Of a stretch of DNA of 64,000 nt, positions 20,773 through 21,662 are shown one piece after another. Under the pieces are notes generated by a model, which had not been told where the DNA came from, ran no database searches, and saw nothing but the letters and a program-made list of their open reading frames with translations. Both the position numbers and the translations under genes were made by a program. The stretch is taken from contig NZ_JANHDK010000005.1 of the NCBI RefSeq assembly GCF_024494725.1, positions 124,001-188,000 on the forward strand, read 5' to 3'. This stretch comes from Haloplanus ruber (GTDB taxonomy: Archaea > Halobacteriota > Halobacteria > Halobacteriales > Haloferacaceae). Every line of letters begins with the position of its first letter. Position 1 is the first letter of the stretch.

Positions 20773-20872
20773 GCAATCCGACCTATCGAGTCGCTTCACT
20801 TAACATCGTCCCTTCTTCCCACCACGACGAAGGGAAACGCCTTTTAGTGGCCCACCGATAGCGAATACCGTA

Positions 20873-20946
20873 GGGCCGGTAGCTCAGTCAGGTAGAGCGA
20901 CGGACTCTTAATCCGTCGGTCGGGGGTTCAACTCCCTCCCGGCCCG
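20873..20946 (+). tRNA. tRNA-Lys(CUU)
   Basis: A 74-nt cloverleaf. The acceptor GGGCCGG pairs with CCGGCCC, the discriminator is G, and the D-arm is AGCTCAGTCAGGTAGAGC. The anticodon loop CTCTTAA gives CUU, and the T-arm is GGGGGTTCAACTCCC. There is no intron and no encoded CCA. Its 3' part is repeated twice downstream. Confidence 0.95.
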
Positions 20947-21200
20947 TGCATCGAACCGCCGAGTGACAACGAGGCGGTGAGGGAACCGGCAGGAAGGAGT
21001 TGAATCAGGAAACGGAGCGAAGCGGAGTGACCGTGGTTCAACTCCCTCCCGGCCCGCTTCTGCGCGACACTACGCGATGAGCGGAGCGGCCGGCGTGACC
21101 GACGCTAAGTGCCGTGTCGCGCGGACGGTGTACGAGAGCGTTGAATCAGGGAACGAACGAAGCGGCGTGACCGTGGTTCAACTCCCTCCAAGGCCGTTCT
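20947..21200. repeat. Tandem copies of the tRNA-Lys 3' end within hairpin-forming units
   Basis: The 22-nt GGTTCAACTCCC...GGCCCG end of the tRNA recurs exactly at 21035-21056 and with changes at 21175-21196. Both copies are preceded by the same ~35-nt block starting GTTGAATCAGG. Hairpins can form: ACCGCC/GGCGGT (20955-20960/20973-20978), GGAGTTGAA/TTCAACTCC (20996-21004/21037-21045), GCGCGACAC/GTGTCGCGC (21062-21070/21114-21122) and GTTGAA/TTCAAC (21140-21145/21177-21182). All loops contain a G(A/C)GTGAC motif. No protein gene is seen in this stretch. Confidence 0.8.
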
Positions 21201-21254
21201 TCGTGCGGTAGATTCCGCGAATCAAGGAAGGATTAATAACATCCTCTCGTTATC

Positions 21255-21662
21255 ATGTTAATCATGGGAAAAGACGAGTACGAGACGCCACGGATTACCC
21301 GGCGTGAGACGGTCGAGAATTTCAGCATCGTCGGCTTGGGGGGTGCCGGTGTGGGAACGATGTGGATGGGATCACCGGTTAACGGCAACGGCCACGGTAA
21401 CGGTAACGGCAACGGCCACGGTAACGGTAACGGCAACGGCCACGGTAACGGTAACGGCAACGGCCACGGTAACGGCAACGGCCACGGTAACGGCAACGGC
21501 CACGGTAACGGCAACGGCCACGGTAACGGCAACGGCCACGGTAACGGCAACGGCCACGGTAACGGCAACGGTAACGGCAACGGCAACGGCCACAGTAACG
21601 GCAACGGTAACGGCAACAGCAATAGCAACAGCAACGGCAACAGCAACCACAAGGGTAACTAA
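21255..21662 (+). CDS. Putative modified-peptide precursor with Gly-Asn-His repeat
   Basis: 135 residues from ATG 21255, or 132 from ATG 21264, which suits a leaderless transcript from the TATA-like ATTAATAAC near 21231. The N-terminus contains EYETPRITRRETVENFS, similar to the YxxPxL leader motif recognised in lasso-peptide precursors. A Gly-rich segment (VGLGGAGVGTMWMGSP) follows, then about 93 residues of Gly alternating with Asn/His. Serines occur in the repeat only in its last 24 residues. No signal peptide. The HprK-like kinase downstream supports a modified-peptide role. This is inference; a structural or metal-binding protein is the alternative. Confidence 0.5.
   Translation: MLIMGKDEYETPRITRRETVENFSIVGLGGAGVGTMWMGSPVNGNGHGNGNGNGHGNGNGNGHGNGNGNGHGNGNGHGNGNGHGNGNGHGNGNGHGNGNGHGNGNGNGNGNGHSNGNGNGNSNSNSNGNSNHKGN
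21379..21650 (+). repeat. In-frame 6/18-bp tandem repeat encoding GN(G)H
   Basis: About 270 bp built from 6-bp units GGTAAC, GGCAAC and GGCCAC, often arranged as an 18-bp higher unit. Synonymous GGT/GGC alternate regularly. Because unit length is a multiple of three, changes in copy number keep the frame. Several other frames also stay open, which is a by-product of the repeat. Confidence 0.9.

Follow-up and report, generated by a model that had tools for sequence, protein, structure and literature searches.

Archaeal integrative elements that target tRNA genes carry a tyrosine integrase and include the SNJ2, pNOB8 and SSV groups, as described in the accessible portion of a review of these elements (PMC8371274). 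Like the units reported here, they use the tRNA 3' end as a target, restore the tRNA, leave a direct repeat on the far side and occupy many isoacceptors; however, in the accessible portion of the review they consist of an integrase and kilobases of genes, whereas the units are approximately 70-150 nt long, gene-less and stacked, and an inverted T-arm fitted to the local tRNA is a feature of the units (PMC8371274). Short gene-less mobile repeats with palindromes, namely MITEs, PATEs and small mobile repeats (SMRs), are known from Haloquadratum, as far as the available text of that study goes (PMC3119063). There, PATEs and SMRs cause no target duplication and all three classes are described without tRNA specificity, whereas the haloarchaeal units restore the tRNA 3' end and are tRNA-specific (available text of PMC3119063).

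A bacterial parallel is found in E. coli K-12, where the RttR region has, behind both tyrT and tyrV, copies of the final 19 nt of tRNA-Tyr (positions 620 and 917 of locus L333). Both systems have tRNA 3'-end copies behind the gene; in E. coli, however, no T-arm foldback was found, the spacing is approximately 175-178 nt and a single locus is concerned, whereas the haloarchaeal units alone form a family that spans the clade and many tRNAs. Integron cassette arrays consist of stackable units, and their attC site is an imperfect palindrome with conserved unpaired positions and variable terminal structure. The haloarchaeal units resemble them in stacking and in having a palindrome of this kind, with an apical hairpin that ranges from a few to approximately 65 nt, but the units have neither an integron integrase nor a cassette gene, their arms follow the tRNA and their target is a tRNA gene. 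No description of such units was found in the literature searched, in which subscription papers were covered only in part, so that absence from print is not shown.

The window analysed here is a 64,000-nt stretch of the Haloplanus ruber genome (NZ_JANHDK010000005.1, positions 124,001 to 188,000). The locus under study is probably a tRNA-Lys(CTT) gene followed by two stacked, gene-less mini integrative elements of a haloarchaeal family specific to tRNA 3' ends, which would have arrived by conservative recombination with an integrase acting in trans. Its features are listed below, where R1 denotes a covariance model built on the unit hairpin.

20873-20946, + strand: tRNA-Lys(CTT) gene, the insertion target (ARAGORN; Rfam tRNA, 71.4 bits)
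20925-20946, + strand: last 22 nt of tRNA-Lys(CTT), the repeated segment
20947-21034, + strand: body of unit 1, a type I element, 88 nt (R1 match at 20993-21056, 59.3 bits)
20953-20978, + strand: leader hairpin of unit 1, stem ACCGCC/GGCGGT, cap GAGTGACAACGA
20992-21007, + strand: 5' arm of unit 1, reverse complement of the tRNA T-loop and T-stem
21008-21034, + strand: apical part of unit 1, with GGAGCGAAGCGGAGTGACCG
21035-21056, + strand: first copy of the tRNA-Lys 3' end, 22/22
21057-21174, + strand: body of unit 2, type I with a longer leader hairpin, 118 nt (R1 match at 21134-21196, 52 bits)
21062-21122, + strand: leader hairpin of unit 2, arms 21062-21070 and 21114-21122; leader common to L012 and L016
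21134-21148, + strand: 5' arm of unit 2, degenerate reverse complement of the T-arm
21175-21196, + strand: second copy of the tRNA 3' end, 19/22 (3 mismatches)

With their copies included, unit 1 spans 20947-21056 and unit 2 spans 21057-21196, approximately 110-140 nt each, and in both the reverse complement of the T-arm lies approximately 26 nt ahead of the copy. RNA folding gives unit 1 a z-score of -3.8 and unit 2 one of -2.7. No ORF of at least 60 aa lies within 20947-21196, which leaves both bodies without an integrase gene, and none was found directly beside them. An Rfam search of 20800-21300 at a permissive threshold returned the tRNA alone above the gathering score. Directly 3' of the second copy is a 135-aa ORF (21255-21662, + strand) composed mostly of NGNGH-type repeats with an 18-nt DNA period.

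The first-pass annotation had pointed to the two downstream copies of the tRNA-Lys end, each with a T-arm reverse complement ahead of it, and both are confirmed, the inverted arm being weaker in unit 2. Its four hairpins, each containing G(A/C)GTGAC, are likewise all present (20953-20978; 20992-21049; arms 21062-21070/21114-21122; 21134-21190), but it was mistaken in calling their stems unrelated, as hairpins 2 and 4 both have the T-arm for a stem. Nor is G(A/C)GTGAC the constant part of the family, being present in 4 of 91 related units, against 80 of 91 for the box GAANCAGGGAG. That all four hairpins contain it is a coincidence of this locus, in which the motif falls in unlike parts: hairpins 2 and 4 have it as the conserved box ahead of the copy (elsewhere usually CGACCGT), hairpin 1 as the apical GA-rich cap. 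The constant parts are the box pair GAATCAGGGAG / CGACCGTGG and the capped hairpin. The idea of stems made from local sequence around a constant loop therefore holds for the outer arms, which follow the local tRNA, but not for the apical loop, whose sequence varies.

A common plan can be drawn from 89 units. Type I units consist, in order, of a leader hairpin, a linker, the T-arm reverse complement, the box TCAGGGAG, an apical hairpin of variable size, the box CGACCGTG and the copy, which spans the T-loop to the discriminator of the tRNA; the arms are inverted, internal and tRNA-derived. Alignment A1 comprises 44 of the 58 listed units, picked by mismatches and length, and its junction was set beforehand by the pattern used for the search; 87.4% of its cells form the pairs of a 22-pair structure. 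Covariation in A1 is 0.189 compared with 0.077+-0.008 in shuffles (0/500), and slid controls reach at most 0.054; the unit arms covary with the host tRNA. Within the first five positions of the apical stem, 348 of 499 cells (100 units) are Watson-Crick, and the remainder are mostly G-A, A-G and G-G. Tandem G.A pairs are stable. What look like GA-rich "loops" in the window are helices on the tRNA strand, capped and built from both Watson-Crick and purine-purine pairs. A U.G wobble is fixed in 32 of the 44 A1 units (one T-G position in DNA). Apart from that position, G-T pairs show no excess over A-C pairs beyond column composition, and a purely RNA-level reading is therefore not favoured. Units behind tRNA-Leu(CAA) in L142 and L153 have an apical part grown to a multi-hairpin structure of approximately 65 nt.

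Insertion can be seen directly at tRNA-Arg(TCT). Genome G005 has an empty site, in which the tRNA is followed immediately by TGGCAGTACC..., and in the window's genome the tRNA is followed by a 72-bp body, a 22-nt copy and then TGGCAGTACC... The native flank is equal to that of G005 at 47 of 60 positions, compared with 17 of 60 for the unit body, and the BLAST alignment is split likewise. This is a clean and exact 94-bp insertion (72-bp body plus 22-bp copy) that regenerates the tRNA end. A precise insertion at a tRNA 3' end, with the end restored and a direct repeat left behind, is what characterizes a tRNA-targeted integrative element. Before the same flank, four other members of the genus (G001, G007, G008 and G010) have differing combinations of type I and type II elements, together with a 5.6-kb element in G001; the pattern used did not find the flank in G002, G003, G006, G009 and G011. 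Units are absent behind many orthologous tRNAs of the genus, as in L266-L270 for Arg(CCT) and G005 for Arg(TCT).

Besides being stacked, units are amplified in tandem, with arrays of three to four identical or near-identical units in G026 (L228, four), G270 (L326, four) and G006 (L243). The last copy in the G026 array reads CTCCCC, as opposed to CTTCCC in the tRNA and the remaining copies, which suggests that the array grew on the tRNA side. In L171, L239 and L253, two tRNA-Asp genes lie a few hundred bases apart and have units closely following them, as if each tRNA had been duplicated along with its unit.

The distribution of the family was examined by searching GTDB contigs for the unit junction CGACCGTGGTTCAANTCCC, which is not a part of the tRNA; the pattern fixes the junction only and leaves the acceptor part of the copy and the rest of the unit free. 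At least 120 records were obtained. Among the matches listed, 118 of 120 records are haloarchaeal, and the other two (Niastella and a Lambdaproteobacteria MAG) have no unit. A same-strand tRNA gene lies 67-528 nt upstream in 115 of the 128 junction matches listed, covering 20 isoacceptor types, and the units always have the same orientation behind the tRNA. The copy equals the 3' 22 nt of its own tRNA in 87 of 114 comparable cases among these matches and has at most 3 mismatches in 106 of 114. The 13 listed matches without a nearby tRNA call comprise two bacterial chance matches (L188, L202), four at locus edges (L115, L117, L136, L211), two that directly follow a tRNA-like 3' end not called as a tRNA (L173, L221) and five that are displaced (L140, L165, L198, L208, L220).

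The R1 model matches 52 of 60 relatives. Of 246 genomes drawn from the phylum, it matches 40 of the 43 that belong to the same order and 0 of the 203 others, a split based on a kinship-sorted listing in which 186 matchless genomes do not appear. The number of matches per genome reaches 29; such counts are maxima, since R1 also matches the palindrome on the other strand. Among the 34 best R1 loci, 32 have a tRNA directly upstream on the same strand; in the other two (L234, L246), the unit is separated from a short piece of the tRNA 3' end by an integrase-coding insertion, the integrase of L246 having been read by eye from the DNA. When 60 relatives were searched with the locus DNA, tRNA-Lys followed by one to three units was found in many species of the genus, family and order, and a unit could be parsed in 20 of 29 of the relatives' loci L010-L038, which were chosen by similarity to the query. 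Similar Leu(CAA) units occur in several genera. In the genomes searched, the family is restricted to haloarchaea.

The inspection of the window's own genome covered 42 of its 43 tRNA genes (all except C1:543726). Lys(CTT), Lys(TTT) and Arg(TCT) are followed by type I units, and Arg(CCT) by a divergent one that R1 reaches at E 0.07 only. A look-alike of the unit was also seen there, by eye only, behind an intron-bearing tRNA (L062). The Arg(TCT) gene of this genome was named tRNA-Pyl by ARAGORN (L058), its relatives being called Arg(TCT) with an intron. The unit structure at the locus exceeds chance, since R1 gives nothing at E<1 outside tRNA flanks in 507.6 kb of this genome, and a GA-capped hairpin whose stem reaches 5 bp or more occurs at this tRNA flank only in 464 kb (the window plus 20 other 20-kb stretches of the same genome). 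A genome-wide constant-loop element was rejected on the latter result and on the finding that no loop 6-mer is prominent among 580 inverted repeats with stems of at least 8 bp. The 18-mer core given in that annotation has four matches with at most 2 mismatches in the genome, three behind tRNA-Lys genes and the fourth (C4:277180) at a locus without a tRNA.

A second type of element is found at the same genes. Type II elements are approximately 60-80 nt long, contain the acceptor end in reverse complement and finish with approximately 13-15 nt of the tRNA, and their GA-capped strand is the opposite strand. With a narrow pattern, they were found at 2 of 41 of the genome's own tRNAs, at 2 of 136 in the 120 junction records listed and at 9 of 96 in relatives' loci. 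Type II-like elements also occur behind Arg(CCT), Arg(GCG) and Arg(CCG) (L047, 548-620, - strand; L073; L265). At tRNA-Lys(TTT) of G270, four identical type I units are followed by a fifth whose copy ends in the Arg-type CCCGTCGCGCCCG, and beyond it lie a type II element with an Arg-type arm and then the Lys-type end CCCTCCCGGCCCG. In the same genome, tRNA-Arg(CCT) and tRNA-Arg(CCG) both end in CCCGTCGCGCCCG (13 nt), each with a related type II element behind it. If an Arg-type circle recombined into a Lys copy, the core of the element would come to lie on the left and the Lys end, displaced, on the right; this is the arrangement in G270. This Arg/Lys hybrid, a single apparent case of core exchange with the target and one of type II rather than type I, may indicate how such elements move.

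Leaders are common to different tRNAs. The leader of unit 1 is found behind tRNA-Lys in relatives and also behind tRNA-Arg in L027/L185; similar leaders accompany a Lys arm at tRNA-Lys (L011) and an Arg arm at tRNA-Arg(CCG) (L185/L027). Halobium salinum has near-identical leaders at two Ala tRNAs (L124, L181), and similar leaders with re-fitted arms lie behind Lys, Arg and Ser tRNAs. These shared leaders suggest that units move between tRNAs and that their arms are re-fitted. Recombination alone is insufficient for fitting the 5' arm to each tRNA; either selection or some form of copying would be required, the simplest idea being selection for pairing, with copying as a possible alternative.

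Larger elements with integrases occupy the same insertion place. In G001, a 5.6-kb integrated plasmid-like element in tRNA-Arg(TCT) (L321, G001:C1:1703700-1710400) encodes a tyrosine recombinase (Phage_int_SAM_1 and Phage_integrase) and a DUF1424 Rep, and has the 13-nt 3'-end core on both sides. The large integrase-bearing insertions seen have this 13-nt core at the place where units insert, have no T-arm inversion and adjoin intact units. The short core precedes units in L165, L198, L208 and L220, and a relative of the integrase-like ORF of L165 lies approximately 0.8-0.9 kb upstream in L198 and L208. For the G001 integrase, the nearest NCBIfam models are XerC/XerD, far below the cut-off, and homologues were found in 12 of 13 genomes of the order tested and in 0 of 4 others. 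SNJ2-type integrases are reported from Halobacteria only in the accessible portion of the review (PMC8371274). The range of the G001 integrase matches this, a correspondence in described range and domains that is suggestive rather than proof.

The link between integrase and units is by location only. Their correlation by genome is weak, with the unit-rich G020 lacking a homologue and the unit-less G016, G143 and G044 having one, and because the integrative elements seen do not share type I flanks, a common recombinase for type I is unproven. A Natrinema unit had no match in plasmid or phage collections, and a further search of such collections returned tRNA matches only. The leader pattern had no match in viral contigs, and no circular form or vector was found. 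The unit-junction pattern gave three matches in viral contigs, all without unit structure. Viral attachment sites were considered and set aside: the T-arm foldback pattern occurs in three viral contigs (L099-L101), with short arms, and is not the unit; in L100 it lies beside an integrase-like ORF and has NN at its centre. These foldbacks may represent an attachment site of a parallel type or may stem from assembly. Behind tRNA-Glu(CTC), the window's own genome has an integrase region, in which no 3'-end copy with at most 5 mismatches was found in 17.3 kb.

Several other explanations can be weighed against this evidence. The units could be functional tRNA trailers similar to the rttR repeats of E. 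coli tyrT: structured RNA co-transcribed with the tRNA and maintained for a role in processing or regulation. The conserved boxes, covarying stems, fixed U.G wobble (32/44), constant orientation behind the tRNA and likeness of Leu(CAA) units across several genera are in keeping with such a role, which is nonetheless unlikely given that units are missing at the orthologous Arg(CCT) and Arg(TCT) genes noted above, that G-T is not favoured over A-C save at one wobble, that the GA-capped strand of type II is the opposite strand and that units appear mobile between tRNAs. It is distinctly unlikely that the units are simple remnants of repeated full-size tRNA integrations, decayed to their attachment ends. 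Integrase-bearing elements do share the 3'-end core at the same tRNAs, and archaeal integrases prefer tRNA 3' ends in the accessible portion of the review (PMC8371274); however, the 72-bp insertion has sharp ends in an otherwise collinear flank, the same conserved unit lies behind 20 isoacceptors in 118 records among the matches listed, and the ends of large elements are without T-arm inversion.

The first-pass annotation had itself proposed layered remnants of tRNA-targeted integrations. Precise insertion at tRNA 3' ends and stacking agree with that proposal, but the units are a mini-element family of their own and not decayed ends of big elements, since the large integrase-bearing insertions have a short core, lack the inversion and adjoin intact units. 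As for a simple att-site duplication with an integrase, the contrary outcome that it had named, an att-like duplication exists but an integrase is absent inside the units. Replication template switching at the T-arm palindrome, producing local inverted and direct copies, would account for arms and copies that follow the local tRNA, yet it is highly improbable as the origin of units restricted to one order; boxes and leaders common across tRNAs and genera do not come from local copying, which largely excludes it. Template switching may contribute to the fitting of the 5' arm.

Under the preferred reading, that of gene-less mini integrative elements, insertion would be a conservative site-specific recombination between the 3'-end core of the element and the tRNA. 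The core of the element would complete the tRNA, and the displaced end would become the downstream copy. The recombinase would act in trans, the likeliest source being XerC/SNJ2-like tyrosine integrases encoded by larger elements with the same 3'-end core, and the foldback hairpin would be the recognised attachment site, possibly as a folded single strand. The identity of this recombinase, and any function of the units beyond their own spread, are what we infer. A bolder and doubtful version is an integron-like system at haloarchaeal tRNA genes, in which gene-less cassettes with a folded single-strand T-arm attachment hairpin are stacked by a host or plasmid tyrosine recombinase and their arm is re-fitted. 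If this were true, the arrays would be landing pads for integrative plasmids and viruses.

A clade-wide family of mini-elements at tRNA ends would account for the partial tRNA copies that recur behind haloarchaeal tRNA genes and would give natural substrates for haloarchaeal tRNA-targeting integrases. It would also offer a sequence-defined case in which the hairpin of an element tracks its target, making target switching in tRNA-specific recombination directly testable.
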